From Pseudomonas sp. B21_DOA (GTDB lineage Bacteria > Pseudomonadota > Gammaproteobacteria > Pseudomonadales > Pseudomonadaceae), in assembly GCA_030544685.1 (NCBI GenBank), contig CP086683.1, positions 4,340,001 to 4,404,000 of the forward strand: 64,000 bases of DNA, read 5' to 3'. Every line of letters starts with the position of its first letter. Position 1 is the first letter of the stretch. This document shows positions 30,387 to 62,400 of this stretch, piece by piece. The position numbers and the translations under genes are program-made. The notes beneath the pieces are model-generated. The model saw nothing but the letters and a program-made list of their open reading frames with translations. It made no database searches and was not told the DNA's origin.

Positions 30387-30410
30387 GGTATTATGGTATA
30401 CCATCAGACG
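30387..30410. promoter_or_regulatory. Palindromic operator, site 1 (upstream of AA_synth gene)
   Basis: 'gtattatggtataccatcag' has the perfect palindrome ATGGTATACCAT (30393-30404). It ends about 40 nt before the AA_synth start codon and recurs at 36231, 37588, 62207 and 62381. The core is the TGGTATACCA type often bound by FCD-GntR regulators; the gene at 34450 is the natural candidate. Confidence 0.7.
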
Positions 30411-30444
30411 CATAGACACTCTCAATCCCCCAACGGAGCAGCTC

Positions 30445-31035
30445 ATGAGTTTCGAAATTCGCAAGATCGTCAGCTATGTCGAAGAAATCTTCATCGAAGG
30501 CGGCAAGGCTACTGACAAGCCGGTAACCATGGTCGGCCTCGCCGTGGTAATGAAGAACCCGTGGGTGGGCAACGGTTTTGTCGAAGACCTCAAGCCGCAG
30601 ATCCGCGCCAATTGCTCCGACCTCGGCGCAATGATGGTCGAGCGTCTGGTCGGCATTATCGGCGGAGCCGATAAGATCGAGGCTTACGGCAAAGCGGCGG
30701 TAGTCGGCGCTGATGGCGAGATCGAGCACGCGTCGGCGGTGATCCACACCCTGCGCTTCGGCAACCACTACCGCGAAGCGGTGAAAGCCAAGAGCTACCT
30801 GAGCTTCACCAACAAGCGCGGCGGTCCGGGCACTTCGATTCAGATCCCGATGATGCACAAGGACGACGAAGGCCTGCGTTCGCACTACATCACTCTGGAA
30901 ATGCAGATCGAAGACGCGCCGCGTGCCGACGAAATCGTCGTCGTGCTGGGTTGCGCCGACGGTGGCCGCCTGCACCCGCGCATCGGTAACCGCTACATCG
31001 ATCTGGAAGAACTGGCTGCCGAAAAAGCCCAGTAA
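30445..31035 (+). CDS. AA_synth (DUF1185) family protein
   Basis: The 196-residue protein starts 'MSFEIRKIVSYVEEIFIEGG' and has 'NPWVGNGFVEDLKPQIRANC', 'RFGNHYREAVKAKSYLSF' and 'VVVLGCADGGRLHPRIGNRY', characteristic of the AA_synth (DUF1185) family. Despite its name, no biochemical activity is established to my knowledge. It is the first gene after operator site 1 and is followed at short distance by a hydrolase, an aldehyde dehydrogenase and a flavin reductase, so here it is most likely a catabolic enzyme, possibly hydrolytic or isomerising. The start at 30445 has GGAG 9 nt upstream. Confidence 0.85.
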   Translation: MSFEIRKIVSYVEEIFIEGGKATDKPVTMVGLAVVMKNPWVGNGFVEDLKPQIRANCSDLGAMMVERLVGIIGGADKIEAYGKAAVVGADGEIEHASAVIHTLRFGNHYREAVKAKSYLSFTNKRGGPGTSIQIPMMHKDDEGLRSHYITLEMQIEDAPRADEIVVVLGCADGGRLHPRIGNRYIDLEELAAEKAQ

Positions 31036-31065
31036 TCACAATAAAAGGCATTGCAGGAGCGCTCC

Positions 31066-31899
31066 ATGATTCGGCTCACCGCTGAACTCACCCCGGCTGG
31101 CACCAGTTACCTGGCGACCGGCCAAGGCCAGCCCGTGGTTTTGATCCACGGCGTGGGCCTGAATAAAGAAATGTGGGGCGGGCAGATTGTCGGCCTCGCC
31201 AGCCAGTACCAGGTGATCGCCTACGACATGCTCGGCCACGGCGCCAGCCCGCGCCCGGCCAGCGGCACCGACCTGCTCGGTTACGCCGATCAGTTGCTCG
31301 AGCTGCTTGATCACTTGAATGTGCCGCAGGCAGCGGTGATCGGTTTCTCCATGGGCGGCCTGGTCGCGCGGGCCTTTGCCTTGCATTACCCGGAGCGCCT
31401 GCAAAGCCTGGTGGTGTTGAACAGCGTGTTCAACCGCAGCGAAGAACAGCGTGCCGGCGTCATCGCTCGCACCGCGCAGGCTGCCGAACATGGCCCGGAC
31501 GCCAATGCCGAAGCGGCGTTGTCCCGCTGGTTCAGCCGTGAATATCAGGCGGCTAACCCGGCGCAGATCGCTGCATTGCGCCAGACCTTGGCCAACAACG
31601 ATCCGCAGGGCTACCTGACCACCTACGAATTGTTTGCCACCCAGGACATGTACCGCGCCGACGACCTGAGCAGTATTCAGGCGCCGACGCTGATCGCCAC
31701 CGGCGAACTCGACCCCGGCTCGACCCCGGAAATGGCCGAGCAACTGGCCCGACGCATCCCCGGTGCGAAGGTTGCCGTGCTGCCCGAGCAACGGCATATG
31801 ATGCCGGTAGAGTCGCCGCGTCTGGTCAACCAGATGCTGCTGGAATTTCTCCAATTCGCACACTCCCGACAAAACCATATAAAGGGGATCGTTGCATGA
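31066..31899 (+). CDS. Alpha/beta-fold hydrolase
   Basis: The 277-residue protein shows the oxyanion region 'VVLIHGVGLNKEMWGGQ', the nucleophile elbow 'VIGFSMGGLVARAFAL', a likely acid residue in 'IATGELDPGSTPEM', and a C-terminal His in 'PEQRHMMPVESP'. This resembles 3-oxoadipate enol-lactonase/RutD-type hydrolases, acting on an ester, lactone or carbamate. AGGAG is 6 nt before the ATG at 31066. It lies 30 nt after the AA_synth gene and overlaps the dehydrogenase gene by 4 nt, so it belongs to the same operon. Confidence 0.85.
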   Translation: MIRLTAELTPAGTSYLATGQGQPVVLIHGVGLNKEMWGGQIVGLASQYQVIAYDMLGHGASPRPASGTDLLGYADQLLELLDHLNVPQAAVIGFSMGGLVARAFALHYPERLQSLVVLNSVFNRSEEQRAGVIARTAQAAEHGPDANAEAALSRWFSREYQAANPAQIAALRQTLANNDPQGYLTTYELFATQDMYRADDLSSIQAPTLIATGELDPGSTPEMAEQLARRIPGAKVAVLPEQRHMMPVESPRLVNQMLLEFLQFAHSRQNHIKGIVA

Positions 31900-33377
31900 C
31901 ACTCGCACGCTTCCAGATGTGCATCGGCGGAGACTGGGTCGACGCCCTCTCCGGCAAGACCTTCGAAAGCCTCAACCCGGCCTCCGCGCAAGCCTGGGCG
32001 GAACTGCCCGACGCCGATGAAGCGGACGTCGAACGCGCCGTGCAAGCGGCGCAAACGGCCTTCGACAGCCCGGCGTGGCGCGGCCTCACCGCCACCGCGC
32101 GCGGTAAACTGCTGCGCCGTCTCGGTGATCTGATCGCAGAAAACAAGGAACACCTGGCGCAGCTGGAAAGCCGCGACAACGGCAAGCTGATCCGCGAAAC
32201 CCGTGGCCAGGTCAGCTATCTGCCGGAGTTCTTCCACTACACCGCAGGCCTCGCTGACAAGCTTGAAGGCGGCACCCTGCCGCTGGACAAGCCTGACCTG
32301 TTTGCCTACACCGTGCACGAAGCCATGGGTGTGGTCGCCGCGATCATTCCGTGGAACAGCCCGCTGTACCTGACAGCGATCAAACTGGCCCCGGCCCTCG
32401 CCGCCGGCAACACGATTGTGATCAAGCCGTCCGAGCACGCCTCGGCGACCATTCTCGAACTGGCGCGTCTGGCCCTTGAAGCCGGAATTCCGCCGGGTGT
32501 GGTCAACGTCGTCACCGGTTACGGGCCGAGCACCGGCGCCGCCCTCACCCGCCATCCGCTGATCCGCAAGATCGCCTTCACCGGCGGCGCGGCCACGGCG
32601 CGGCATGTAGTACGCAGCAGCGCCGAGAACTTCGCCAAGCTGTCGCTGGAACTGGGCGGCAAGTCGCCGAACATCATCTTCGCCGATGCCGATCTCGACA
32701 GCGCGATCAACGGCGCGATCGCGGGGATCTATGCGGCGTCCGGGCAGAGCTGCGTGTCCGGTTCGCGCTTGCTGGTGCAGGACGAAATCTACGACGAGTT
32801 CGTCAATCGTCTGGTCGAGCGCGCCCAGCGCATCCGCATCGGCAACCCGCAGGAAGACCACAGTGAAATGGGCCCGATGGCCACCGCGCAGCAACTGGCG
32901 GTGGTCGAAGGACTGGTCGCCGATGCGATCGCCGAAGGCGCGCGCTTGCGCACCGGCGGCAAGCGTCCGAGCGATGTTGGCGAAGGCTGGTTCTACGAGC
33001 CGACGCTGTTCGAATGCGACCGCAATTCGATGAAGATCATGCAGGAAGAAGTCTTCGGCCCGGTGGCTTCGGTGATTCGTTTCAAAGACGAAGCCGAAGC
33101 GCTGGCGATCGCCAATGACTCACAGTTCGGCCTCGCCGCCGGCATCTGGACCCGCGACCTCGGTCGCGCCCATCGTCTGGCGCGCGATGTGCGCTCGGGG
33201 ATTATCTGGGTCAACACTTACCGCGCGGTGTCGGCGATGGCGCCGATCGGCGGCTTCAAGAACAGTGGCTATGGACGCGAAAGCGGCATCGACTCGGTGC
33301 TGGCCTACACCGAACTGAAAACGGTGTGGATCAACCTCTCCCAGGCGCCAATGCCTGATCCGTTTGTGATGCGCTAG
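31896..33377 (+). CDS. Aldehyde dehydrogenase family protein
   Basis: The 493-residue protein has the NAD-binding 'IIPWNSPLYLTAIKLAPALA', the catalytic Glu motif 'LELGGKSPNIIFADAD', the catalytic Cys in 'ASGQSCVSGSRLL', and the C-terminal 'EEVFGPVASVIRF' and 'GGFKNSGYGRESG'. It is a general NAD(P) aldehyde dehydrogenase; the substrate cannot be told from sequence. Overlapping the hydrolase gene by 4 nt and followed 12 nt later by the flavin reductase, it probably oxidises an aldehyde released earlier in the pathway. Confidence 0.9.
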   Translation: MTLARFQMCIGGDWVDALSGKTFESLNPASAQAWAELPDADEADVERAVQAAQTAFDSPAWRGLTATARGKLLRRLGDLIAENKEHLAQLESRDNGKLIRETRGQVSYLPEFFHYTAGLADKLEGGTLPLDKPDLFAYTVHEAMGVVAAIIPWNSPLYLTAIKLAPALAAGNTIVIKPSEHASATILELARLALEAGIPPGVVNVVTGYGPSTGAALTRHPLIRKIAFTGGAATARHVVRSSAENFAKLSLELGGKSPNIIFADADLDSAINGAIAGIYAASGQSCVSGSRLLVQDEIYDEFVNRLVERAQRIRIGNPQEDHSEMGPMATAQQLAVVEGLVADAIAEGARLRTGGKRPSDVGEGWFYEPTLFECDRNSMKIMQEEVFGPVASVIRFKDEAEALAIANDSQFGLAAGIWTRDLGRAHRLARDVRSGIIWVNTYRAVSAMAPIGGFKNSGYGRESGIDSVLAYTELKTVWINLSQAPMPDPFVMR

Positions 33378-33389
33378 GAGTCCTGAGAA

Positions 33390-33875
33390 ATGATCGAACC
33401 CGGCATTTACAAAGACGTCATGAGTTCGTTCCCGTCCGGCGTCACGGTGGTCACCACCCTCGACCCGGACGGCGGCATCGTCGGCATCACCGCCAGCGCG
33501 TTCAGCGCGCTTTCGATTGACCCGGCGCTGGTGCTGTTCTGCCCCAACTACGCCTCCGACACCTACCCGGTGCTGCGCGACAGCAAGAAATTCGCCATCC
33601 ACTTGCTCTCCGCCGAGCAGACCGCCGAAGCCTACGCGTTCGCCGGCAAGGGCAAGGAAAAGGCCAAGGGTATCGAGTGGCACCTGAGCGATCTGGGCAA
33701 CCCGATTCTGGCCAAGGCCACGGCGATCATCGAGTGCGAGTTGTGGCGTGAATACGACGGCGGCGATCACGCGATCATTGTCGGCGCAGTGAAGAACCTG
33801 ATCCTGCCCGAGCAACCGGTGACGCCGATGATTTACCACAAGGGCAAGCTGGGTGCGTTGCCGCCCCTTGTTTGA
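33390..33875 (+). CDS. Flavin reductase family protein (copy A)
   Basis: The 161-residue protein has the flavin reductase-like FMN-binding split barrel: 'MSSFPSGVTVVTTLDPDG', 'GITASAFSALSIDPALVLFC', 'FAIHLLSAEQTAEAYAFA' and 'GGDHAIIVGAVKNL'. Members supply reduced FMN/FAD to two-component monooxygenases (HpaC, RutF and similar). A very similar copy (about three quarters identical by eye) lies at 62448. No partner monooxygenase is in the window. It is the fourth gene of the 30445-33875 operon. Confidence 0.88.
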   Translation: MIEPGIYKDVMSSFPSGVTVVTTLDPDGGIVGITASAFSALSIDPALVLFCPNYASDTYPVLRDSKKFAIHLLSAEQTAEAYAFAGKGKEKAKGIEWHLSDLGNPILAKATAIIECELWREYDGGDHAIIVGAVKNLILPEQPVTPMIYHKGKLGALPPLV

Positions 33876-33888
33876 GAACAATGCAAAA

Positions 33889-33983
33889 CCCTGTGGAGCT
33901 GGCTTGCCAGCGATGGCGACGGGACATTCAACATCAATGCTGACTGAACTACCGCTATCGCTGGCAAGCCAGCTCCCACAGGA
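33889..33983. repeat. Inverted REP doublet (REPIN)
   Basis: Arms 'gtggagctggcttgccagcg' and 'cgctggcaagccagctccca', the same arm variant as at 22098-22200, separate the reductase gene from the carboxymuconolactone-decarboxylase-like gene. Confidence 0.8.
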
Positions 33984-34002
33984 TTGAGGTGAGGCGAAAG
34001 AA

Positions 34003-34392
34003 ATGAGTAACGAAAAATACGAAAAAGGCCTGCAAATCCGCACGCAGGTACTCGGCGAAGCCTACGTGCAACGCTCGATCGAGAACGCCGACGATTTCAC
34101 CCGTCCGCTGCAGGAAATGGTCACTGAATACTGCTGGGGCCATGTCTGGGGGCGTGAGGGTCTGTCGCTCAAGGAGCGCAGCATGATCAACCTGGCGATG
34201 ATCTCGGCGCTCAACCGCCCGCATGAACTCAAGCTGCATGTGCGTGGCGCCTTGCGTAACGGCCTGAGTCGTGAGCAAATACGCGAAATTCTGCTTCAGG
34301 TCGGCATTTATTGCGGCGTTCCGGCGGCCGTGGACAGTTTCCGGCTGGCCCGTGAAGCCTTTGCCGAAGCCGACGCCGAGGCCTCCAGTTAA
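34003..34392 (+). CDS. Carboxymuconolactone decarboxylase family protein
   Basis: The 129-residue, mostly helical protein 'MSNEKYEKGLQIRTQVLGEA' contains 'EMVTEYCWGHVWGREGLSLK', 'MINLAMISALNRPHELKLH' and 'EQIREILLQVGIYCGVPAAV', the typical gamma-carboxymuconolactone decarboxylase fold. It lacks the CxxC of AhpD-type peroxidases, so a decarboxylase-like role in ring-derived acid degradation is more likely. It belongs to the same locus as the hydrolase, dehydrogenase and flavin reductase. Confidence 0.85.
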   Translation: MSNEKYEKGLQIRTQVLGEAYVQRSIENADDFTRPLQEMVTEYCWGHVWGREGLSLKERSMINLAMISALNRPHELKLHVRGALRNGLSREQIREILLQVGIYCGVPAAVDSFRLAREAFAEADAEASS

Positions 34393-34449
34393 CCCTCGGC
34401 TGTTTTGATGCCCGTCTGGCATGGACAGCCAAGCTCAAGAGCGGACCCC

Positions 34450-35214
34450 ATGAAACGCCAGCCACTCGACGACAGCTTCAAGGTCAATCGCAACCCCGTT
34501 ACCCTGCGCGAAATCGTGCTGGACAAACTGCGTAGCGCGATCATGAATTTCCAGCTCATGCCAGGGGATCGTTTGGTCGAACGCGACCTGTGCGATCGCC
34601 TCGGTGTCAGCCGCACCTCGGTGCGCGAAGCCTTGCGTCACCTTGAATCCGAAGGCCTGGTGGAATTCGCCGACGCCAAAGGCCCGCGCGTAGCCATCAT
34701 CACCCTTGACGACGCTGTCGATATCTACGAACTGCGTTGCGTGCTCGAAGGCCTGATCGTGCAGCTGTTCACCCTGCGCGCCAAAGCCAAGGACATCAAA
34801 GCTTTGGAAAAAGCCCTCGATGACAACCGCAAGGCGCTCAAGGACGGCGAGTTGCAACAGGTGATCGACTCGGTGCAGGGTTTCTACGACGTGTTGCTCG
34901 AAGGCTCGGGCAACCATGTCGCCGCCACGCAATTGCGCCAGTTGCAGGCGCGCATCAGCTATCTGCGCGCGACCTCGGTCTCCCAGGAAAACCGACGCGG
35001 CGCGAGTAATCACGAGATGGAAAAAATGGTCGAGGCGATCAAGAGCGGTGATCCGCTGGCGGCGCATCAGGCCTGCGTCGATCACGTCCGCGCGGCGGCT
35101 GCCGTGGCCCTCGACTACCTCAAGCGCAAGCAGGAAGAAACCGGCGTCGCCGTCAAAGGCACTCCGGCGATCACCCTGCCGATCGCGCTGAAAGAACCCC
35201 GCATAGGTCAATGA
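34450..35214 (+). CDS. FCD-domain GntR-family regulator, candidate regulator of the five-site palindrome regulon
   Basis: The 254-residue protein starts 'MKRQPLDDSFKVNRNPVTLR', followed by the winged helix 'CDRLGVSRTSVREALRHLES' and an FCD ligand domain with 'DIYELRCVLEGLIVQLFTL', 'YDVLLEGSGNHVAATQL' and 'HQACVDHVRAAAAVALDY'. I take the ATG at 34450; an in-frame upstream ATG at 34405 precedes a non-family stretch. It sits in the middle of the locus whose promoters carry the TATGGTATACCA palindrome and is the only regulator gene nearby, so it is the likely repressor; the effector is unknown. Confidence 0.85.
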   Translation: MKRQPLDDSFKVNRNPVTLREIVLDKLRSAIMNFQLMPGDRLVERDLCDRLGVSRTSVREALRHLESEGLVEFADAKGPRVAIITLDDAVDIYELRCVLEGLIVQLFTLRAKAKDIKALEKALDDNRKALKDGELQQVIDSVQGFYDVLLEGSGNHVAATQLRQLQARISYLRATSVSQENRRGASNHEMEKMVEAIKSGDPLAAHQACVDHVRAAAAVALDYLKRKQEETGVAVKGTPAITLPIALKEPRIGQ

Positions 35215-35215
35215 C

Positions 35216-35779
35216 ATGTTCAGCCCGAGCTTTTGCCCGAAATGCGGTGGCCCTGACCTCGGTCAGCAGACGCCGCCGGGTGATACGCACGAGCGCCTGA
35301 TGTGCCGCGGCTGCGGCTATATCCACTACGTCAATCCGAAGATCATTGCCGGCTGCATCATCGAGCAGGACGGCAAATACCTCCTGTGCCAACGGGCGAT
35401 CCCACCACGCCCGGGCACCTGGACGCTGCCGGCCGGGTTCATGGAAAGCGGTGAAACCACCGAGCAGGCGGCGCTGCGCGAAGTCTGGGAAGAAAGCGGC
35501 GTGCGCGCGGAAATCGTCTCGCCGTATTCGATTTTCAGCGTGCCGAAGATCAGCGAGGTGTACATCATCTTCCGCGCCATCGCCCTCGAGATTACCGGGC
35601 AGTACGGGCCGGAGACCATGGATTACAAGTTCTTCGCCCCGGAAGAGATTCCGTGGGAGCAGATCTACTACCCGGCGATCCGGCAGATCCTCGAGCGCTA
35701 TATCGAAGAGCGCCAGGCCGGGGTTTACGGGATTTACATGGGTAATGATGACAGCGGCAAGATCCATTTCATGCGCTAA
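35216..35779 (+). CDS. NUDIX hydrolase with N-terminal zinc ribbon
   Basis: The 187-residue protein has a zinc ribbon with CPKC and CRGC pairs ('FCPKCGGPDL', 'MCRGCGYIHYVNPK') and a complete Nudix box 'GFMESGETTEQAALREVW' 'EESGV'. Zinc-ribbon Nudix proteins of this type hydrolyse NADH, ADP-ribose or FAD-like dinucleotides. Starting 2 nt after the regulator gene, it is in the same transcript. Cleaning up damaged NAD(P)H or turning over FAD would suit a flavin-linked pathway, but the substrate is not known. Confidence 0.85.
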   Translation: MFSPSFCPKCGGPDLGQQTPPGDTHERLMCRGCGYIHYVNPKIIAGCIIEQDGKYLLCQRAIPPRPGTWTLPAGFMESGETTEQAALREVWEESGVRAEIVSPYSIFSVPKISEVYIIFRAIALEITGQYGPETMDYKFFAPEEIPWEQIYYPAIRQILERYIEERQAGVYGIYMGNDDSGKIHFMR

Positions 35780-35913: not shown

Positions 35914-36210
35914 TTAAATCGGGGCAACGCCCTCAACGATGATGATCTCCGCCCTCGCCCATTCCTCGCGGTAACTCTTCGCCTCCTGATACGCCGCCGA
36001 GCGGTAGCACGCCACGGCTGTTTCGTAGCTTTCAAACTCGATGATCACCGTGCGCTGTGGCGTCTCCCGTCCTTCCAGCGCCTCGCTGCGCCCGCCTCTG
36101 GCGACAAACTTGCCGCCGAATGCGGCAATCGCCTGCGAGGTGCGCTGGGTGTATTGGCTGTAGTGCTCGGCATCGGCTATATCCACATGTGCAATCCAGT
36201 ACGCCTTCAT
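35914..36210 (-). CDS. DUF1330 family protein
   Basis: The 98-residue protein 'MKAYWIAHVDIADAEHYSQY' then 'AIAAFGGKFVARGGRSEALE', 'RTVIIEFESYETAVACYRS' and 'YREEWARAEIIIVEG' is a typical DUF1330 dimeric alpha-beta barrel protein, about the usual 95 residues. Some relatives act on small catabolic intermediates but no general function is established. It is divergent from the RibBX-like gene, with operator site 2 between them. Confidence 0.85.
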   Translation of the reverse strand: MKAYWIAHVDIADAEHYSQYTQRTSQAIAAFGGKFVARGGRSEALEGRETPQRTVIIEFESYETAVACYRSAAYQEAKSYREEWARAEIIIVEGVAPI

Positions 36211-36230: not shown

Positions 36231-36252
36231 TGTATTATGGTATACCAATATA
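36231..36252. promoter_or_regulatory. Palindromic operator, site 2 (DUF1330 / RibBX divergent promoter)
   Basis: 'tgtattatggtataccaata' contains TTGG-type core TGGTATACCA as at site 1. The two divergent start codons are only 68 bp apart, so this single site can control both. Confidence 0.7.
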
Positions 36253-36278: not shown

Positions 36279-37388
36279 ATGGCCTTCAACAGCATCGAAG
36301 AAATCATCGAAGATTATCGCCTCGGCAAAATGGTCCTGCTGGTCGATGACGAAGACCGCGAGAACGAAGGCGACCTGCTGCTGGCCGCCGACCGCTGCAC
36401 GCCGGAGGCTATCAGCTTCATGGCCCGCGAGGCACGTGGGCTGATCTGCCTGACCCTGACCGATGAACATTGTCAGCGCCTGGGTCTGGAGCAAATGGTG
36501 CCTGCCAACGGCAGTGTATTCAGCACTGCATTTACCGTGTCGATCGAAGCGGCAGTTGGCGTGACCACCGGCATTTCCGCGGCAGACCGGGCCTGCACCG
36601 TTGCCGCTGCTGTCGCGCCGAATGCCCGCGCCGAAGACCTGGTGCAGCCCGGCCACATCTTCCCGCTGCGCGCCAAGGAAGGTGGCGTGCTCACCCGCGC
36701 CGGGCATACCGAGGCCGGTTGCGATCTGGCGCGCCTGGCCGGTTTCACCCCGGCCTCGGTGATCGTCGAAGTCATGAACGACGACGGCACCATGGCGCGC
36801 CGCCCGGATCTGGAGCAGTTCGCGCGCAAGCACGGGATCAAGATCGGCACCATCGCGGACCTGATCCACTACCGCCTGAGCACCGAGCACACCATCGAAC
36901 GCATCGGTGAACGAGAGCTGCCGACGGTGCATGGCACCTTCCGTTTGATCACTTTCGAGGATCGCATCGAAGGCGGCGTGCACATGGCGATGGTCATGGG
37001 CGACTTGCGTCGTGAAGAGCCGACACTGGTGCGCGTGCACGTGATCGATCCGCTGCGCGATCTGGTCGGTGCCGAGTACAGCGGGCCGACGAACTGGACG
37101 CTGTGGGCGGCGCTGCAACGGGTCGCGGCGGAAGGTCATGGGGTTGTGGTGGTGCTGGCCAATCATGAATCGTCGCAGGCGTTGCTTGAGCGCGTGCCGC
37201 AGCTGACCCAGCCGCCACGGCAGTTCAGCCGCTCGCAGTCGCGGATTTATTCCGAGGTCGGGACGGGGGCGCAGATTCTGCAGAACCTTGGGGTGGGCAA
37301 GCTGCGGCATCTGGGGCCGCCGCTGAAATATGCGGGGTTGACCGGGTATGACCTTGAGGTGGTTGAAAGCATTCCCTTCAGCGAATAA
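36279..37388 (+). CDS. RibBX-like 3,4-dihydroxy-2-butanone-4-phosphate synthase with degenerate GTP cyclohydrolase II domain
   Basis: The N-terminal ~205 residues carry all RibB signatures: '[17 protein letters not shown]', '[18 protein letters not shown]', '[14 protein letters not shown]', '[20 protein letters not shown]' and '[11 protein letters not shown]', so it should make the four-carbon precursor of riboflavin. The C-terminal ~160 residues follow the RibA fold ('[20 protein letters not shown]') but where GTP cyclohydrolase II has its zinc cysteines (HSxCLTGD region) the sequence reads '[17 protein letters not shown]', with no cysteines. This is the RibBX arrangement. Placed behind operator site 2 in a flavin-reductase-containing regulon, it may raise FMN supply for a flavoenzyme pathway; that link is inference. 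Confidence 0.85.
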
Positions 37389-37569: not shown

Positions 37570-37610
37570 AGTGCTTGCACAAAGTTTGGAATACCATAAT
37601 ATGATATTCC
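37570..37610. promoter_or_regulatory. Operator site 3 within a promoter block shared with the NCS1 gene
   Basis: 'gcttgcacaaagtttggaat' followed by 'accataatatgatattcc' matches, in reverse orientation, the block at 62207-62238 ('gcttgtgcaaagtttggaat', 'accataatatgg'). The 'ggaatac' and 'gatattcc' ends form an inverted repeat. It precedes the ABC substrate-binding gene by about 100 nt. Confidence 0.65.
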
Positions 37611-37707
37611 ATAGATCGGACGAACCGAAAAACCGTCCAGCTACTGCTCCCGACAGGCGGGCAACAACGCAAGGCCCGCTCAAAAACACAACAATGAGGG
37701 CGTGAAC

Positions 37708-38733
37708 ATGGTGTTGAACAAAGCTGCAACCGCGATCTTTTTCGCGGGACTGCTCAGCGTTACCGGCCAGGCTGCAATGGCTGCCGAAAGCGTGAATTTT
37801 GTCAGCTGGGGCGGTAGCACCCAGGATGCGCAGAAACAGGCCTGGGCCGATCCGTTCAGCAAGGCCAGCGGCATCACCGTCGTTCAAGACGGGCCGACCG
37901 ACTACGGCAAACTCAAGGCCATGGTCGAAAGCGGCAACGTGCAGTGGGACGTGGTCGATGTCGAAGCCGATTTTGCCCTGCGCGCCGCTGCCGAAGGCCT
38001 GCTCGAACCGCTCGACTTCAAAGTGATCCAGCGCGACAAGATCGATCCGCGCTTCGTCAACGATCACGGGGTCGGTTCGTTCTTCTTCTCCTTTGTCCTC
38101 GGCTACAACGAAGGCAAGCTCGGCGCCAACAAGCCGCAGGACTGGAGCGCGCTGTTCGACACCAAGACCTACCCCGGCAAACGCGCCCTGTACAAATGGC
38201 CAAGCCCCGGCGTGCTCGAACTGGCGCTGCTGGCCGACGGCGTTGCGGCTGACAAGCTCTACCCGCTGGATCTTGATCGCGCCTTCAAGAAACTCGACAC
38301 CATCAAGAAAGACATCGTCTGGTGGGGCGGCGGCGCGCAGTCGCAGCAACTGCTGGCGTCCGGCGAAGCGAGCATGGGCCAGTTCTGGAACGGTCGCGTG
38401 CACGCCTTGCAGGAAGACGGCGCACCGGTGGGCGTGAGCTGGAAACAGAACCTGGTCATGGCCGACATTCTGGTCATTCCAAAAGGCTCGAAAAACAAGG
38501 ACGCGGCGATGAAGTTCCTCGCCAATGCCAGCAGCGCCAAAGGCCAGGCCGACTTCTCCAACCTGACCGCCTACGCGCCGGTCAACCTCGACAGTGTGGA
38601 GCGTCTGGATTCGACGCTGGCGCCCAACCTGCCGACGGCTTACGCCAAGGATCAGATCACCCTTGATTTCGCTTACTGGGCCAAGAACGGTCCGGCTATC
38701 GCGACACGGTGGAACGAATGGCTGGTCAAATGA
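37708..38733 (+). CDS. Polyamine/opine-type ABC transporter substrate-binding protein
   Basis: The 341-residue protein has a signal peptide 'MVLNKAATAIFFAGLLSVTG' 'QAAMA' and a mature start 'ESVNFVSWGGSTQDAQKQAW', typical of the PotD/PotF-like (SBP_bac_8/13) family. The start at 37708 has GAGGG 8 nt upstream; a GTG two codons earlier is also possible. It heads an operon with two permease genes and an ATPase gene and is preceded by operator site 3. The ligand cannot be predicted; family members bind polyamines, opines, amino-alcohols and related amines. Confidence 0.85.
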   Translation: MVLNKAATAIFFAGLLSVTGQAAMAAESVNFVSWGGSTQDAQKQAWADPFSKASGITVVQDGPTDYGKLKAMVESGNVQWDVVDVEADFALRAAAEGLLEPLDFKVIQRDKIDPRFVNDHGVGSFFFSFVLGYNEGKLGANKPQDWSALFDTKTYPGKRALYKWPSPGVLELALLADGVAADKLYPLDLDRAFKKLDTIKKDIVWWGGGAQSQQLLASGEASMGQFWNGRVHALQEDGAPVGVSWKQNLVMADILVIPKGSKNKDAAMKFLANASSAKGQADFSNLTAYAPVNLDSVERLDSTLAPNLPTAYAKDQITLDFAYWAKNGPAIATRWNEWLVK

Positions 38734-39638
38734 AAATCGCGGCCACTGCGCCCCGTCCCTCCACGGCCACCGGGAGCGCCGCCGGCGCTGCCGGTTCGGC
38801 CCTCAAGCAACGCTGGCGCGGCGCCGGCAACCTCGTCCCTGCGCTGCTGTTCCTCGGCCTGTTCTTTCTGGCGCCGTTGATTGGCCTGCTGCTGCGCGGT
38901 GTGCTGGAACCTGTGCCTGGCCTTGGCAACTACGAACAACTGTTCGCCAATTCGGCCTATGCGCGGGTGCTGCTCAACACCTTTTCGGTGGCCGGGCTGG
39001 TGACGTTGTTCAGTCTGCTGCTGGGCTTTCCGCTGGCCTGGGCGATCACCTTGGTGCCGCGCGGCTGGGGGCGCTGGATCCTCAACATCGTCCTGCTGTC
39101 GATGTGGACCAGCCTGCTCGCCCGCACTTATTCTTGGCTGGTGCTGCTGCAAGCCTCGGGCGTGATTAACAAGGCCTTGATGGCGATGGGCATCATCGAT
39201 CAACCGCTGGAGATGGTGCACAACCTCACCGGCGTGGTGATCGGCATGAGTTACATCATGATCCCGTTCATCGTGCTGCCGTTGCAGGCGACCATGCAGG
39301 CTATCGACCCGATGATCCTGCAGGCCGGCTCGATCTGCGGCGCCAGTCCGTGGACCAACTTCTTCCGGGTGTTCCTGCCGCTGTGCCGGCCGGGCCTGGC
39401 CTCAGGGGGTTTGATGGTGTTCGTGATGTCGCTCGGTTACTACGTCACCCCCGCTTTGCTGGGCGGGGCGCAGAACATGATGCTGCCGGAGTTCATCATT
39501 CAGCAGGTGCAATCGTTCCTCAACTGGGGCCTGGCCAGTGCCGGCGCCGCGTTGTTGATCGCAATCACCTTGGTGCTGTTCTACTTCTACCTGAAGCTTC
39601 AACCGGAATCCCCGGTTGGCGCCAGTAACGCGAGGTAA
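38730..39638 (+). CDS. ABC transporter permease (PotB type)
   Basis: The 302-residue protein begins 'MKIAATAPRPSTATGSAAGA' and has six membrane helices with the permease loop 'EAGSICGASP'-like 'LQAGSICGASPWTNFFRVFL', i.e. the EAA-type coupling motif. The start at 38730 overlaps the binding-protein stop (ATGA). It pairs with the permease at 39645. Confidence 0.88.
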   Translation: MKIAATAPRPSTATGSAAGAAGSALKQRWRGAGNLVPALLFLGLFFLAPLIGLLLRGVLEPVPGLGNYEQLFANSAYARVLLNTFSVAGLVTLFSLLLGFPLAWAITLVPRGWGRWILNIVLLSMWTSLLARTYSWLVLLQASGVINKALMAMGIIDQPLEMVHNLTGVVIGMSYIMIPFIVLPLQATMQAIDPMILQAGSICGASPWTNFFRVFLPLCRPGLASGGLMVFVMSLGYYVTPALLGGAQNMMLPEFIIQQVQSFLNWGLASAGAALLIAITLVLFYFYLKLQPESPVGASNAR

Positions 39639-39644: not shown

Positions 39645-40454
39645 ATGCTCCTGACCCCCAATGCCATGAGCCGGCGCATGCGTTTCGGCCTCTACGCCAC
39701 TACTGGACTGATCGGTCTGTTCCTGCTGTTGCCGATCGTGTTCATCGTGCTGCTGTCGTTCGGCTCCTCGCAGTGGCTGGTGTTCCCGCCACCGGGCTGG
39801 ACGCTGAAATGGTACGGCCAGTTCTTCTCCAACCCCGACTGGATGAACGCCGCTGCCGCCAGCCTCAAGGTCGCCGTGCTGACCACGATCTGCGCCGTGG
39901 CCCTCGGTTTGCCGACCGCGTTTGCGCTGGTACGCGGGCGCTTTCCCGGCCGCGAGATGCTCTACGGCCTGTTCACCCTGCCGATGATCGTGCCGCTGGT
40001 GATCATCGCCGTGGCGGTCTACGCGCTGTTCCTCAAGCTCGGTTATACCGGGACGATGTTCGCCTTCGTCGTCAGCCATGTGATCGTCGCGCTGCCGTTC
40101 ACCATCATCTCGATCATCAACTCGCTGAAGCTGTTCGATCAGTCGATTGAAGACGCTGCAGTGATCTGCGGTGCCTCGCGCCTGCAAGCGGTGTTCAAGG
40201 TGACGTTTCCGGCGATCCGCCCGGGCATGGTCGCCGGCGCCCTCTTCGCCTTTCTCGTTTCGTGGGACGAAGTGGTGCTCAGCGTGATGATGGCCAGCCC
40301 GACCCTGCAAACCCTTCCCGTGAAAATGTGGACCACCCTGCGCCAGGACCTGACCCCGGTGATCGCCGTCGCTTCGACGCTGCTGATCGGCCTGTCGGTA
40401 TTGGTCATGGTGATCGCCGCCGCCCTGCGCCGGCGCAATGAAATCAGCGCCTGA
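39645..40454 (+). CDS. ABC transporter permease (PotC type)
   Basis: The 269-residue protein has six membrane helices ('LIGLFLLLPIVFIVLLSFGS' is the first) and the coupling loop 'EDAAVICGASRLQAVFKVTF' (EAA motif). It starts 6 nt after the previous permease stop and is followed 17 nt later by the ATPase gene, so the four form one operon. Confidence 0.88.
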   Translation: MLLTPNAMSRRMRFGLYATTGLIGLFLLLPIVFIVLLSFGSSQWLVFPPPGWTLKWYGQFFSNPDWMNAAAASLKVAVLTTICAVALGLPTAFALVRGRFPGREMLYGLFTLPMIVPLVIIAVAVYALFLKLGYTGTMFAFVVSHVIVALPFTIISIINSLKLFDQSIEDAAVICGASRLQAVFKVTFPAIRPGMVAGALFAFLVSWDEVVLSVMMASPTLQTLPVKMWTTLRQDLTPVIAVASTLLIGLSVLVMVIAAALRRRNEISA

Positions 40455-40471: not shown

Positions 40472-41626
40472 ATGAGTGCCGTGATCAAAGACGCATCCCA
40501 GCAGAACGACAAACCCCTGGTCAGCCTGCGCAACCTGAACAAGCACTACGGCGATTTCGCTGCCGTCGACAACATCTCGCTGGACATCAAGGACGGTGAA
40601 TTCCTCACCTTCCTCGGCTCCAGCGGCTCGGGCAAAAGCACCACGCTGTCGATGCTCGCCGGGTTCGAAACCCCGAGCAGCGGCGAGATCCTCGTCAACG
40701 GCCAGTCGCTGGTCAATGTGCCGCCGCACAAGCGCGACATCGGCATGGTCTTCCAGCGCTATTCGCTGTTCCCGCATCTGTCGGTGCGTGACAACATCGC
40801 TTTCCCTTTGGCGATTCGCAAACTGGCGGCGGCCGAGCGCGACAAACGCGTCGACGTCATGCTGAAACTGGTGCAGCTGGAACAGTTCGCCCATCGCCGC
40901 CCTTCGCAACTCTCTGGTGGTCAGCAACAACGTGTCGCCATCGCCCGGGCGCTGGTTTACGAGCCGCGCATTCTGTTGATGGACGAACCACTCGGTGCGC
41001 TGGATAAAAAACTGCGCGAAGACCTGCAAGACGAACTGCGCCAACTGCACCGGCGCCTGGGCATCACCATCGTCTACGTGACCCACGACCAGGAAGAAGC
41101 CATGCGTCTGTCGCAACGCATCGCGATTTTCAGCCACGGCAAGATTGTCGGGCTGGGCAGTGGTTATGACCTTTATCAAAATCCGCCGAATGCGTTTGTT
41201 GCGTCGTTTCTGGGTAACTCGAACTTCCTCAAGCTCAAGGCGCAGAGCAATGCAGCGGCGAGTTTCGAGGGGCAGTCGTTGTCGATTCGGCTGACGGCTG
41301 GGCTGCACACTGATCAGGATGTTCTGTTGATGGTGCGGCCGGAAAAGGCTGTGGCGCTGAGTGTGCAGCAAGCGAGTGATGAGCCGCTCGCGGCGGGCTG
41401 GAATGAGGTGTCGGCGAATGTTGTGGAGGTGCTGTTTCTCGGTGAAAGCCAGACGTGCAGCGTGGTGACGGCGGGCGGGACGTCGATGACGGTAAAAGCA
41501 CTGTCGGCCGCGGGCATGCCACTCAAGGCTGGGGATCCGGTGCGGGTGCGCTGGGCGACGGCGGATGCGTGTGTTTATACCGAGTGGACGGAGAGCGACC
41601 TGAACAAAGCAGCGGGTGCTCACTAA
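40472..41626 (+). CDS. ABC transporter ATP-binding protein (PotA type)
   Basis: The 384-residue ATPase has Walker A 'LGSSGSGKSTTLSMLAGF', signature 'LSGGQQQRVAIARALVYEP', Walker B 'RILLMDEPLGALD', the switch His in 'VYVTHDQEEAM', and a C-terminal TOBE domain ('VLLMVRPEKAVAL'). This is the PotA/FbpC subgroup that drives polyamine- or iron-type importers. It is the last gene of the importer operon. Confidence 0.9.
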   Translation: MSAVIKDASQQNDKPLVSLRNLNKHYGDFAAVDNISLDIKDGEFLTFLGSSGSGKSTTLSMLAGFETPSSGEILVNGQSLVNVPPHKRDIGMVFQRYSLFPHLSVRDNIAFPLAIRKLAAAERDKRVDVMLKLVQLEQFAHRRPSQLSGGQQQRVAIARALVYEPRILLMDEPLGALDKKLREDLQDELRQLHRRLGITIVYVTHDQEEAMRLSQRIAIFSHGKIVGLGSGYDLYQNPPNAFVASFLGNSNFLKLKAQSNAAASFEGQSLSIRLTAGLHTDQDVLLMVRPEKAVALSVQQASDEPLAAGWNEVSANVVEVLFLGESQTCSVVTAGGTSMTVKALSAAGMPLKAGDPVRVRWATADACVYTEWTESDLNKAAGAH

Positions 41627-58108: not shown

Positions 58109-58147
58109 CATGGCCCCGTCTGACTTTGATCGAGAAGAGAAGATGAT

Positions 58148-58241: not shown

Positions 58242-58279
58242 GATGTGCTTGCTGCAAATAAAAAGACAGGGAGCGTGCC

Positions 58280-59254
58280 ATGCCTGCCACGAACATCAAC
58301 ATCGGCGAACCCTGGATGTGGGGCGCCTTCATCGTCTTCGTTCTGGCCATGCTGGCCCTGGACTTGTTTGTCTTCGGCGGGCGCAAGGCGCACCGGGTGT
58401 CGGTGCGGGAAGCGTCGGCCTGGGTGATTGCCTGGTGCCTGTTGGCACTGAGTTTTGCCGGGCTGCTCTGGTGGTATCTGCACGGCGAATTCGGCGGTGA
58501 AATCGCCCGGCAGAAAACCCTGGAATTCCTCACCGGCTATCTGATCGAGCAGTCGCTGTCGATCGACAATATGTTCGTCTTCGTGATGATCTTCAGCTAT
58601 TTCGCCGTGCCGCCGGAATTGCAGCGGCGGGTGCTGCTGTACGGCGTGCTGGGCGCGATTGTCATGCGCGCGATAATGATTTTTGCCGGGGTATGGCTGG
58701 TCTCGCAGTTCGAATGGCTGCTGTATGCCTTCGGGGTGTTCCTGATCATCACCGGGATCAAAATGCTGGTGTTTGCCGACCAGCAACCGGATCTCGACAA
58801 CAATCCGCTGTTGCGCTGGGTTCGCGGGCATATGCGCATCACCAGCGGCTTTCACGGCGAGAAGTTTTTCATCCTGCAGAGCGGCGTGCGCTGGGCGACA
58901 CCGATGTTTCTGGTGCTGGTGCTGATCGAGGCCAGCGACCTGATGTTCGCGGTCGACAGCATCCCGGCGATCTTCGCCGTGACCACCGACCCGTTCATTG
59001 TTTTCACTTCGAACATCTTCGCGATCATGGGCCTGCGCGCGCTGTATTTCCTGCTGGCAGACATGGCGGACCGTTTTCACCTGCTCAAGTATGGGCTGGC
59101 GATCGTGCTGGTATTTATTGGCGGCAAGATGGTTGTGATGCCGTGGTTCCACATGCCGGTGGAATGGTCGCTGGCAGTGGTGGGCTCGGTGATTCTGGGG
59201 TCGGTGCTGTTGAGTCTGGTGACGACGCGCGAGGCTGAACGCCGCACCGAATGA
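58280..59254 (+). CDS. TerC-family membrane protein
   Basis: The 324-residue protein has about nine membrane helices and the family motifs 'EQSLSIDNMFVFVMIFSYF' and 'LIEASDLMFAVDSIPAIFAV' 'TTDPFIVFTSNIFAIMGLRA'. TerC/Alx proteins take part in metal-ion (manganese) export or tellurite tolerance. GGGAG lies 6 nt before the ATG. No Alx-type leader RNA is evident; the upstream space holds a REPIN. Confidence 0.9.
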   Translation: MPATNINIGEPWMWGAFIVFVLAMLALDLFVFGGRKAHRVSVREASAWVIAWCLLALSFAGLLWWYLHGEFGGEIARQKTLEFLTGYLIEQSLSIDNMFVFVMIFSYFAVPPELQRRVLLYGVLGAIVMRAIMIFAGVWLVSQFEWLLYAFGVFLIITGIKMLVFADQQPDLDNNPLLRWVRGHMRITSGFHGEKFFILQSGVRWATPMFLVLVLIEASDLMFAVDSIPAIFAVTTDPFIVFTSNIFAIMGLRALYFLLADMADRFHLLKYGLAIVLVFIGGKMVVMPWFHMPVEWSLAVVGSVILGSVLLSLVTTREAERRTE

Positions 59255-59268
59255 CACCACACAAAATC

Positions 59269-59363
59269 CCTGTAGGAGTGAGCCTGCTCGCGATCGCGGT
59301 GTATCAGCCAACATCTACGTCAACTGACACACCGCTATCGCGAGCAGGCTCACTCCTACAGGG
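59269..59363. repeat. Inverted REP doublet (REPIN)
   Basis: Arms 'gtaggagtgagcctgctcgc' and 'gcgagcaggctcactcctac', a variant with T/A in place of G/C pairs at the stem base, conserved by compensating changes in both arms. Confidence 0.8.
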
Positions 59364-59370
59364 GATGCTG

Positions 59371-60471
59371 TTATTTATCGGATTTGATACTGGTCCACAC
59401 CCGCGTCCGCACCCGCTCCATCTTCTGGGGCAACGGCTGCACCACATAAAGAGTTTTCAGCGCTTCGCTGGTCGGCGTCAGGTTGGGGTTATCGGTGATG
59501 TCCTTGTTGACCAGCGGCATCGAGTCCTTGTTGGCATTCGGGTAACCGAGGAAATCACTGATGGGTGCGATCACTTTCGGATCGAGCAAGTGGTTGAGGA
59601 ATTCGTGAGCCTCGGCAACGTTCTTCGCGCTTTTCGGAATGGCGAACGTGTCGAACCAGATCGGCGCGCCCTCCTTCGGCAGACGCCAGTCGACCACCAC
59701 ACCGTTGCCCGCCTCTTTGGCGCGATTGCCGAACTGGTAGAAGCTGCCGGAATAACCGATCGCCACGCAGATGTCGCCGTTGGCGATGTCGGTCATGTAC
59801 TTGGCCGAGTTGAAGTAGGTCACGTATGGGCGAATCTTCATCATCAAGGCCTTGGCCTTTTCATAGTCCGCCGGGTTCTGGCTGTTCGGATCGAGGCCGA
59901 GGTAATGCAGGGCCAGCGGCAGGATTTCCGACGGCGAATCGAGCATCGCCACGCCGCAGGCCTTGAGCTTTTCCATGTTCTCGGGTTTGAACACCAGATC
60001 CCAACTGTCCACTGGCGCGTTATCGCCCAGGGCAGCCTTGACCTTGGCCGGGTTGAAGCCGATCAGCACGGTGCCATACATGTACGGCACGCCGTACTGG
60101 TTGCCGGGGTCGTTGGCATCGAGCAACTTGAGCAAGGCCGGATCCTGATGCTGCCAGTTCGGCAGTTTCGACTTATCGAGTTTCTGGAACACGCCGGCCT
60201 TGATCTGGGTTTCGATGAACTGATTGGACGGCACCACCAGGTCGTAACCGGAGTTGCCGGTGAGCAGTTTGGCTTCCAGGGATTCGTTGGTGTCGAAGGT
60301 GTCCCAGGTCACTTTGATCTTGCTTTGCTCGGCGAAGTCCTTGGGCACTGAAGGCAGGATGTAATCCGCCCAGTTGTACACCCGCAGTTCGCGCTGCTCG
60401 GCCTGGACGGCGCTGGCCAGCAGCGTCAGGCCACACACGGTGGCGCCCAGAATGCGTTTGATCGTGACCAT
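59371..60471 (-). CDS. Polyamine ABC transporter substrate-binding protein (PotF type)
   Basis: The 366-residue protein has a signal peptide ('MVTIKRILGATVCGLTLLAS' 'AVQA') and a PotD/PotF core: 'LRVYNWADYILPSVPKDFAE', 'GYDLVVPSNQFIETQIKAGV', 'VPYMYGTVLIGFNPAKVKAA' and 'GAPIWFDTFAIPKSAKN'. It is a stand-alone binding-protein gene; no permease or ATPase is adjacent, so it probably works with a Pot complex encoded elsewhere. It lies downstream of the NCS1 gene on the same strand. Confidence 0.88.
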   Translation of the reverse strand: MVTIKRILGATVCGLTLLASAVQAEQRELRVYNWADYILPSVPKDFAEQSKIKVTWDTFDTNESLEAKLLTGNSGYDLVVPSNQFIETQIKAGVFQKLDKSKLPNWQHQDPALLKLLDANDPGNQYGVPYMYGTVLIGFNPAKVKAALGDNAPVDSWDLVFKPENMEKLKACGVAMLDSPSEILPLALHYLGLDPNSQNPADYEKAKALMMKIRPYVTYFNSAKYMTDIANGDICVAIGYSGSFYQFGNRAKEAGNGVVVDWRLPKEGAPIWFDTFAIPKSAKNVAEAHEFLNHLLDPKVIAPISDFLGYPNANKDSMPLVNKDITDNPNLTPTSEALKTLYVVQPLPQKMERVRTRVWTSIKSDK

Positions 60472-60675
60472 GGTTGTTTCCCCGAATGCGACGTGAGATC
60501 GATGGTTTTTATGTTCTGTACACGGCAGTGGCTGTAACGATAGCCAAGGGCAAAAAGGTCGAGCCTGTTGTTATGGTTTCGATTCTTGCTGACAGCGTAG
60601 CGCGGTGACAGTAGGCGGCAGGCCAAAGGGGATCGATATGGCCAATTTCCGTGACCGCTGAAATGCGCAAACAAA

Positions 60676-60700
60676 AATGCCCGGCGCTGGGCCGGGCATT
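60676..60700 (-). terminator. Intrinsic terminator of the NCS1 gene
   Basis: 'aatgcccggcgctgggccgg' 'gcatt' forms a GC-rich stem followed on the minus strand by 'tttttg', 18 nt after the NCS1 stop. Confidence 0.85.
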
Positions 60701-60718
60701 GCTGGATTGCGGTTGCAG

Positions 60719-62130
60719 TCAGTCGGTATAGCCGAGTCTGGCCGCCCTGCTCTGCTGCGCCTGACCGCGAGTTGCCAGGCAGTAATACAACGGCACGGTG
60801 ACCACCAGGCCAACCAGCCACGACAGGTCGGCACCTTCGACGAGATTGGCGTACGGCCCGACGTACAGCGAGGTGTTGGCGAATGGCAGTTGCACGATGA
60901 TGCCGATGAAGTAGGCAATGATCGCGTGCAGGTTGAAGCGCCCGTAGATGCCACCGTCGGCGCGGAAGATCGAGGTGATGTCGTAGTTGCCGCGCTTGAT
61001 CAGGTAGAAATCGATCAGGTTGATCGACGCCCACGGCACCAGCACCAGCAACAGCGCCAGAATCAGTCCGATGAATTCGGAAATGAAATCCGCCGAAGCA
61101 CCGAGGGCGACCACACAGCAACCGGCCAGGATCACGCTCGACAGCACCACGCGCACCTTGATGCTCGGCGTCCACTGGCTGGCGAACGTCTGGATCGAGG
61201 TGATGATCGACAACACCGCGCCATACAGATTGAGCGCGTTGTGGCTGATGATGTTGAGCAGAAACAGCACCATCAGAATCGGCCCCAGCCAACCGGTGGA
61301 CTGCTTGACCGCTGCCATCGCTTCAGTGCCTTCCGGCGTCGCCAGTACCGCCACCGCGCCAAAACTGAACGACAGGATCGTGCCCAGCGTCGCGCCCAGA
61401 TACGTCGCCCAAAAGGGTTTGGCGATACCGATGTCTGCTGGCAGATATCGCGAGTAGTCGGAGACGTATGGCGAGAAGCTGATCTGCCAGATGATGCCCA
61501 GCGACACCGTCGCCAGCCAGCCGGACAGGTTGAAACTGCCGCGCGTCAGGAAGTCTGCCGGCAAGTCATGGGCGAAGATGTAGATGAAGCCTGCGAGCAA
61601 TGCGCCGCCCATCACCCAGGTGCCGATGCGGTTGAGGGTGTGGATGAAGTTGTAGCCGATCACACCGATCGCCGTCGCGGCGAGCGCGCCGATCAGAATG
61701 CTCAGCGGCGCTGGCACAGACGGCGCAATGCCAACGATGGATTTGCCGGCCAGCACGATGTTGGAAATGAAGAAGCCGATGTAGATGAGCGCCGCAAAGA
61801 ACACGATCAGCAGTGCGCCATAACGACCGAACTGACCGCGACTCTGGACCATTTGCGGAATGCCCATGCGCGGGCCCTGGGCCGAGGCCAGCGCGATCAC
61901 CACGCCGCCGATCATGTGCCCCAGCGCAATCGCCAGCAGCCCCAGAACAGATTGAGGTGGAACACCTGAACCACCATGGCGCCGGTGACGATGGGCAGTG
62001 GCGCGATGTTGGTGCTGAACCAAAGAGTGAACAGATCGCGGGCCTTCCCGTGGCGTTCCGCGAGTGGGACGTAATCGACCGTATGATTCTCGATCAACGG
62101 ATCTTGCCGGGACATCTGGGACATATGCAT
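60719..62130 (-). pseudogene. NCS1-family nucleobase/cation symporter (frame broken at 61940-61943)
   Basis: The N-terminal frame starts at the ATG 62130 ('MHMSQMSRQDPLIENHTVDY' 'VPLAERHGKARDLFTLWFST' 'NIAPLPIVTGAM'), the classical NCS1 N-terminus; the rest continues in another frame as 'LLAIALGHMIGGVVIALASA' 'QGPRMGIPQMVQSRGQFGRY'. One lost G in 'ctggggctgctgg' (minus strand) separates the two. The intact protein would be about 470 residues with twelve helices. The longer open frame from 62236 has a nonsense-looking, Arg-rich N-terminus and is not the true start. Substrates are nucleobases, allantoin or related N-heterocycles. Operator site 4 lies upstream. Confidence 0.85.
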
Positions 62131-62206
62131 GAACTCGAGTTTGTCTGTTTTTATCTTTGTATGAAGCCAAACCGGGAGGACTCTTGGGTCGCCCCTCAGA
62201 TGCAGA

Positions 62207-62238
62207 CCATATTATGGTATTCCAAACTTTGCACAAGC
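62207..62238. promoter_or_regulatory. Operator site 4 with the promoter block shared with site 3
   Basis: 'ccatattatggtattccaaa' 'ctttgcacaagc' is the reverse complement, with few mismatches, of the block at 37570-37603. It drives the minus-strand NCS1 gene. The match extends beyond the palindrome, so two distant transporter operons share a common promoter architecture. Confidence 0.65.
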
Positions 62239-62380
62239 CTGATCCGCTGATTGTGTCGCCCTCTGATCCGCTATCCTCGCTGATCCCACCCCTGCACGGC
62301 TAGCTGAACGCCCCGTAAACATTGCCTTTCCGACGAAAGTCGCACGTTTATCGGTTCACCAGAAAAGCTCTTGCAAGATA

Positions 62381-62400
62381 TGTATTACGGTATACCATCA
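62381..62400. promoter_or_regulatory. Palindromic operator, site 5 (upstream of flavin reductase copy B)
   Basis: 'tgtattacggtataccatca' matches site 1 and site 2 except for one base in the left arm. It ends 48 nt before the reductase ATG. With site 4 about 145 bp away, the divergent NCS1 and reductase genes each have their own copy. Confidence 0.7.

Follow-up and report, generated by a model that had tools for sequence, protein, structure and literature searches.

Can genes for the detection, import and breakdown of one compound, together with genes for the cofactor that its breakdown uses, be scattered along a chromosome and still answer to one DNA switch? The question is raised by a stretch of 64,000 nucleotides of Pseudomonas sp. 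B21_DOA (contig CP086683.1, positions 4,340,001 to 4,404,000; hereafter the window, G000:C1:4340001-4404000 of a 5.94 Mb contig), in which a palindromic sequence recurs before several transcription units spread over about 36 kb. The compound that we consider here is trigonelline (N-methylnicotinate), a plant betaine used by bacteria as a food source. One DNA switch probably controls the scattered genes for its detection, import and breakdown and for cofactor making. As a whole we consider it likely that the FCD-GntR protein encoded at 34450 represses, as its dedicated regulator, a dispersed regulon by which an N-methylpyridinium betaine is catabolized; among such compounds trigonelline itself is the most likely. 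Positions without prefix are those of the window.

A palindromic operator confined to one genomic region

Exact matches to ATTATGGTATNCCA are found in the window at 30390 (+), 36234 (+), 37587 (-) and 62211 (+), and a further site at 62384 (+), ATTACGGTATACCA, differs from it by one mismatch. The palindrome extends over 18-22 bp, its fullest form being GTATTATGGTATACCATAATAC. A preliminary description had listed five sites with a common core; all five are real and their coordinates were correct to a few bases, the core being exact in four of them and carrying one mismatch in the fifth. That set did not include a sixth operator, again exact, located 1.08 kb past the window end (G000:C1:4405077-4405094).

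At up to three mismatches the window contains 16 matches to ATTATGGTATNCCA; 100 shuffles gave 4.71 on average and never more than 12. Searching the whole genome (5.94 Mb) gave five exact matches and a single one-mismatch match, all of them inside one 35 kb region, and all further matches listed carry two mismatches. An independent-base model with 60% GC expects 0.05 exact and 2.2 one-mismatch matches genome-wide. A chance origin was ruled out by these shuffles, counts and expectations; the five exact sites alone are decisive in this respect, and the one-mismatch site at 62384 was accepted because of its place and its conservation. A general GntR motif common to many promoters was also discarded, since matches at zero or one mismatch occur only at the six regulon places; unrelated promoters, where the preliminary description had suggested looking, have none. 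Relaxing the core to TGGTATNCCA gives 11 distinct places in the genome, five in the regulon and six with different flanks, and there are two additional TGGTATACCA places whose flanks differ from those of the regulon sites.

As had been proposed, each of the five sites first described precedes a start codon, with 24 to 108 bp between the operator end and the ATG. Operator 1 (ATTATGGTATACCATCAG, 30390..30407, +) ends 38 bp before an AA_synth gene, and operator 2 (ATTATGGTATACCAATAT, 36234..36251, +) lies between the divergent genes of a DUF1330 protein (24 bp) and a RibBX-like protein (28 bp). Operator 3 (AGTTTGGAATACCATAAT, 37583..37600, +, with the core on the minus strand) is found 108 bp before the gene of an ABC solute-binding protein (SBP) and is overlapped by an imperfect second site at 37598-37611. 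Operator 4 (ATTATGGTATTCCAAACT, 62211..62228, +) is, by coordinates, about 80 bp from the start of an NCS1-type permease gene, and operator 5 (ATTACGGTATACCATCAG, 62384..62401, +) 47 bp from that of a second flavin reductase. Operator 6, beyond the window, is flanked by divergent genes for a chemoreceptor (57 bp) and a luciferase-like monooxygenase (LLM; 130 bp). The latter, just outside the window, is the enzyme that was missing from the pathway as first described.

Conservation within Pseudomonas

The regulator gene (34450..35214, +; Pfam GntR 1.2e-17, FCD 1.4e-24) has a counterpart in 64 of 119 genus genomes (E <= 1e-60). The LLM was found in 62 (E <= 1e-100), all of them among those 64, so that only G057 and G075 have the regulator without the LLM. 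We have looked for ATTATGGTATACCA at up to one mismatch in 29 of the 64 genomes with the regulator gene and in 20 of the 55 without it; all 29 contain the site and none of the 20 does. This co-occurrence bears out the suggestion that one palindromic operator and one FCD-GntR protein link two distant loci. A single regulon with the 34450 protein as cognate regulator is well supported by comparative genomics.

A matrix built from the six sites was used to scan 40 loci from 30 genomes, picked for spread and contiguity among the 62 with both genes and related to the genome from which the matrix derives. Sites were assigned to genes within a fixed 300 bp. They precede AA_synth in all 22 relatives whose fetched stretch includes the upstream region, RibBX and DUF1330 in 23 of 23 each, the SBP gene in 22 of 23, the NCS1 permease gene in 17 of 18, flavin reductase 2 in 26 of 27, the chemoreceptor gene in 4 of 4 and the LLM gene in 13 of 30. 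Operon-internal genes had no sites: GntR (0/30), the Nudix hydrolase (0/30), the carboxymuconolactone-decarboxylase-like protein (CMD; 0/20), the first ABC permease (0/23) and the aldehyde dehydrogenase (ALDH; 0/27). Unassigned matches were 3 of 129, one of them before AA_synth at the edge of the fetched stretch, and three column-shuffled control matrices gave 0, 5 and 2 matches. The grouping of transport, flavin synthesis and flavin reduction under one operator, claimed from the window alone, is thus retained in relatives.

The RibBX-ABC module has been relocated in seven genomes (G056, G015, G003, G024, G116, G064 and G009), and both of its sites were retained in all seven. The frequency of the modal base is 0.90-0.98 inside the sites against 0.43-0.91 in the flanks, with flanks that are fairly conserved too at the SBP and chemoreceptor sites; for the NCS1 permease this count has n=0, its query lacking the first part of the gene. 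The same shortened query explains the single NCS1 miss (G084), where a site is present 320 bp from the start of the query, beyond the 300 bp limit. All 17 LLM genes lacking a separate site are co-oriented with flavin reductase 2 and follow it at a distance of 30-215 bp. An operator in the genome G068 (L094:7117) has on one side a second SBP paralogue (61%) and on the other a different chemoreceptor (34%). Capture of a chemoreceptor may therefore have occurred repeatedly.

Conservation beyond the genus

We have also compared 85 loci, the best 80 of 548 from a named-genome scan with the Acinetobacter junii LLM plus five plasmid loci. Many are close kin (37 distinct 18-mers among 83 sites), and nearly all come from other Proteobacteria, including Acinetobacter baylyi. 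In 83 of the 85, the 350 bp preceding AA_synth contain a site scoring at least 16, and in 78 of those 83 it ends 26-42 bp before the start. Together with the genus loci, this answers in the affirmative whether the sites are conserved upstream of orthologues. The site of A. baylyi has the variant core TTGTATACCA. The two misses are an Arthrobacter locus (L126) and that of Xanthomonas cucurbitae (L150), where the site is degenerate. A GntR homologue was present in the fetched stretch of 80 loci and absent from that of the other five. Paired divergent tgn-like operons with two different LLM types were seen in four Caballeronia loci (L170, L172, L173 and L175).

Several of these results speak against the regulon as we propose it. 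In Pseudomonas, G010 has no site before flavin reductase 2 and G042 none before the SBP gene, 17 of the 30 LLM genes are not directly preceded by one, and the reading frame of the NCS1 permease is broken in the window genome. Beyond the genus, control upstream stretches of other genes in the 85 loci reach the score of 16 in 29 of 513 cases, some of which adjoin true sites, and no site precedes AA_synth in the Arthrobacter locus, whose LLM (79%) is the nearest one on a plasmid. The latter locus (A. dokdonellae plasmid) carries, beside this LLM, genes for a tautomerase, two AA_synth proteins, a riboflavin kinase and a NUDIX protein.

The proposed cognate regulator

A query with the GntR protein of the A. 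baylyi locus found the 34450 protein as its best match in the window genome (8.6e-36; next 7.2e-14). Compared with 78 GntR homologues, the DNA-binding half of the window protein averages 58% identity and the FCD half 29%. Such unequal conservation is common in many GntR proteins, and the contrast offers weak support here. The protein meets no NCBIfam equivalog cut-off, the best being phnR_burk (124.9 bits versus 271.5).

A second GntR-type regulator gene, at 25669-26388, adjoins a dehydratase-like open reading frame (ORF; family judged by eye). It was rejected as cognate regulator, its type occurring in 10 of the 20 genomes that have neither the operator nor the 34450 gene. More generally, another member of this broad family, such as the 25669 protein or a housekeeping GntR recognizing the TGGTATACCA core, could act at the sites and leave 34450 as a bystander. 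The TGGTATACCA core is known from other FCD-GntR operators (UxuR/ExuR type), and the two additional places with other flanks would fit such a regulator. We regard this as very improbable, given that all 20 genomes without the 34450 gene lack the site, even the 10 with a 25669-type regulator, and that the GntR homologue of the 80 loci mentioned above is often divergent from AA_synth. A TGGTATACCA palindrome with ATT/AAT flanks at G000:C1:4435448 is perhaps the operator of another FCD-GntR regulator.

Promoter geometry and proposed mechanism

A -35-like element, CTTGCAC or CTTGCAA, is found directly upstream of the AA_synth, SBP and flavin reductase 2 sites, and in other taxa a TTGACA-like sequence stands just before the operator. 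A GntR protein bound directly after such an element would therefore block RNA polymerase. A consensus promoter scan found a promoter-like TGCACA-18-TATGAT spanning operator 3 and no match around operators 1, 4 and 5. That the regulator acts instead as an activator, at some or all of the promoters, might be read from the site-to-ATG distance, which varies from about 24 to 167 bp. This is improbable in our opinion, because the upstream elements put the site between -35 and -10, the geometry of a repressor, as does the match across operator 3, even though operators 1, 4 and 5 gave none.

Repression by the 34450 protein, which we prefer, would work as follows. The protein would bind the palindrome between the -35-like element and the -10 region, with six operators, two of them divergent, serving eight gene starts. 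Since AA_synth is upstream of its gene and co-oriented with it, self-control is probable. Trigonelline or an early intermediate would bind the FCD domain and the operators would be freed. Chemoreceptor, ABC importer and NCS1 permease would then be made for detection and uptake, and the LLM, supplied with FMNH2 by the two flavin reductases, would open the ring. The ALDH, the hydrolase and the AA_synth protein would convert the product towards succinate semialdehyde. Finally, the RibBX-like protein may provide additional riboflavin precursor for the free flavin of the two-component oxygenase.

Genes of the regulon

Downstream of operator 1 there are, all on the plus strand, the genes of an AA_synth/DUF1185 protein (TgnF-like; 30445..31035; Pfam PF06684, 1.7e-70; 55% identity to the A. 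baylyi locus protein), an alpha/beta hydrolase (TgnD-like; 31066..31899; Pfam; 36%), the ALDH (TgnC-like; 31896..33377; Pfam 1.7e-173; 52%), flavin reductase 1 (like the TgnA reductase domain; 33390..33875; Pfam PF01613; 37%) and CMD (34003..34392; Pfam PF02627; 78%). They are followed by the regulator gene and, directly 3' of it, by that of a Nudix hydrolase (35216..35779; Pfam NUDIX and Zn_ribbon_Nudix). The DUF1330 gene (35914..36210, -), identified from its translation, has a 46% homologue adjoining the GntR gene in A. baylyi, where Pfam assigns DUF1330. Divergent from it is RibBX (36279..37388, +; Pfam halves for DHBP synthase and GTP cyclohydrolase II).

The ABC importer belongs to a polyamine-type family. 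Its SBP (37708..38733, +; Pfam SBP_bac_8) is 58-60% identical to proteins of the Sinorhizobium meliloti pSymA and Mesorhizobium loci; the permease ORFs (38730-39638 and 39645-40454) and the ATPase ORF (40472-41626), all on the plus strand, have homologues in L125 and L128, two rhizobial loci, where they come after the genes for LLM and ALDH. The NCS1 permease gene (60719..62130, -; Pfam PF02133) is interrupted at about 61918-61942, and an intact ORF of 470 amino acids was found in both relatives checked (G033 and G097), indicating either a pseudogene peculiar to this strain or an error of sequencing; the completeness of the genome is 95.3%. Flavin reductase 2 (62448..62933, +; Pfam PF01613, 1e-42) is followed by the C-terminal part of a dCache chemoreceptor (63074..64000, -; Pfam) that starts beyond the window at G000:C1:4405020. 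The LLM gene, which matches luciferase-like monooxygenase families, starts at G000:C1:4405224.

The substrate: trigonelline or a related compound

Trigonelline degradation was reportedly elucidated in A. baylyi (the tgn cluster; Perchat et al. 2018), and we take the A. baylyi locus of our set (L134, DSM 14961) to be this cluster. It contains genes for DUF1330, GntR, AA_synth, hydrolase, flavin reductase, LLM, ALDH, NCS1 permease, a second ALDH and CMD, as well as a porin-like ORF (judged by eye). This match of gene sets means that the pathway can no longer be called undescribed, as it had been at first. The two-component flavin monooxygenase is present in the window genome (LLM and flavin reductase, 50% and 37% identity to the A. 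baylyi proteins), and so are, together, the ALDH, hydrolase and AA_synth homologues. Ring opening has been attributed to TgnA/TgnB (PMC8269262), and TgnF of A. baylyi ADP1, described as homologous to a DUF1185 protein, is reported to stimulate TgnE-dependent succinate semialdehyde oxidation (PMC7913881). The uracil Rut pathway was discarded, the RutF and RutD models scoring far under cut-off.

The name "flavin-dependent trigonelline monooxygenase, oxygenase component" is given by JGI to three LLM relatives (79-84% identical) among the 120 matches listed. Glutamate-synthase-like genes lie near regulon genes in 8 of the 30 Pseudomonas genomes (G064, G070, G084, G085, G018, G056, G065 and G093), and the fetched stretches of four of the eight also show a type III glutamine-synthetase-like gene; we take these neighbours to be for methylamine assimilation (GmaS-Mgs). 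The A. baylyi locus is flanked by sarcosine-oxidase-like genes that score below curated cut-offs. In G018 an orphan operator-like site (L107:4579, score 21.0) was found 118 bp before the glutamine-synthetase-like gene. The best scores in the corresponding upstream stretch of three other loci are 2.9 (L113), 10.2 (L111) and 7.7 (L132), below the threshold of 16, the best place in L111 and L113 being at nearly equal distance (114-118 bp) from the gene. The membership of these methylamine genes in the regulon is unproven.

The case for trigonelline is weakened by a number of observations. The LLM of the window genome has only 50% identity with its A. baylyi counterpart, and in the LLM tree it falls with Actinobacteria in one of two clades split at 100/100, under a midpoint root only. 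Other JGI names among the LLM matches listed are alkanesulfonate-monooxygenase-like, and those of NCBI just "LLM class flavin-dependent oxidoreductase". The second ALDH (succinate semialdehyde dehydrogenase) is absent from the window cluster, the rest of the genome not having been searched for one; a second ALDH at 39-41% identity is found in the operon of some relatives. The glutamate-synthase neighbourhood count of 8 in 30 has no background control. Lastly, Pseudomonas syringae pv. actinidiae isolates are reported to differ in trigonelline use from the descriptions of other authors (PMC10890144).

An LLM at this identity and in a separate clade may have shifted in substrate. The regulon and its regulator would then be as proposed, and the oxygenase of the Pseudomonas and Actinobacteria type would open a different N-methylated pyridinium or a related N-heterocycle in a sister pathway. 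The 47-53% identity of the LLM to those of other proteobacterial loci points in this direction, as do 22 alignment positions fixed differently between the clades (at least 95% per group, one of them a gap), versus 123 fixed alike. Against it, the operator type, the neighbours and the regulator family are all as in the A. baylyi locus, and the glutamate-synthase-like genes of the eight genomes fit a release of methylamine. Besides, trigonelline was used by 53 of 53 Pseudomonas isolates in one study (PMC10890144, Table 2), which is indirect evidence, and among the 119 genus genomes identity to the A. baylyi LLM does not exceed 52%. We therefore consider trigonelline itself the likely substrate and a related pyridinium unlikely. 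Among the papers listed for homarine, none dealt with a pathway for that compound.

A somewhat wider scenario, which we offer as a speculation, is that the TgnR-like GntR and its operator were kept across Proteobacteria and the pathway was rebuilt in Pseudomonas. Ring opening would fall to an oxygenase from a clade shared with Actinobacteria, with a different pyridinium as its substrate. A chemoreceptor, a second FMN reductase and flavin biosynthesis would have been captured singly through the operator, giving a substrate-induced supply of FMN for the free-flavin oxygenase.

Flavin supply

The RibBX of the regulon has a second copy in the genome at G000:C1:251003 (58% identical), and a separate RibA is found at 247020. 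The zinc-cysteine motif is a feature of the GTP cyclohydrolase II of bifunctional RibBA. Judged by eye, the cyclohydrolase half of RibBX lacks the Cys motif that is present in the RibA of this genome, so the likely gain would be extra DHBP synthase. The presence of a riboflavin kinase and a NUDIX gene near the LLM in the Arthrobacter plasmid locus suggests that flavin supply has been added more than once. The regulon predicts that riboflavin precursor synthesis is co-induced with the flavin-using oxygenase.

Comparison with known systems

The pathway and the regulator family are already known. A description of the operator or the regulon was not found in searches of open-licence literature on trigonelline, GntR and TgnR, and may exist elsewhere; trigonelline is unmentioned among the matches listed for regulon, GntR and riboflavin. 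Annotations already use tgnR as a gene name (PMC13408031), and the table of a 2021 review gives nodD as the sole trigonelline sensor (PMC9151330). As it was found in 83 of the 85 related loci, the operator may serve as a simple test of which bacteria are able to sense and use trigonelline, it points to the regulator, and the two are candidate parts for a trigonelline biosensor.

FCD-type GntR proteins such as UxuR/ExuR, PdhR and NanR are repressors of catabolic operons. Like them, the window regulator combines GntR and FCD domains with a TGGTATACCA palindrome core, and the ATTA/TAAT flanks separate its sites from theirs.

On the pSymA of S. meliloti (strain 1021) we found the GntR, AA_synth, hydrolase, flavin reductase, LLM and ALDH genes and a related ABC importer, as in the window genome. 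They form a single compact locus with the site core TGGCATACCA, in which the ABC importer is present, no NCS1 homologue was seen and no RibBX match was found in 41 kb. S. meliloti without pSymA is reported not to grow on trigonelline (PMC4207669), and we infer that these genes are the trigonelline catabolism (trc) region.

The closest system is the tgn cluster of A. baylyi, with which the window genome shares the DUF1330, FCD-GntR, AA_synth, hydrolase, flavin reductase, LLM, ALDH, NCS1 permease and CMD families. There too an operator-type site, with the TTGTATACCA core, precedes AA_synth, and an exact TGGTATACCA lies about 100 bp before the second ALDH. In contrast, the window genome has its units split over about 36 kb, an LLM at only 50% identity and two short flavin reductases, and it carries the operator also at the RibBX, ABC importer and chemoreceptor genes.

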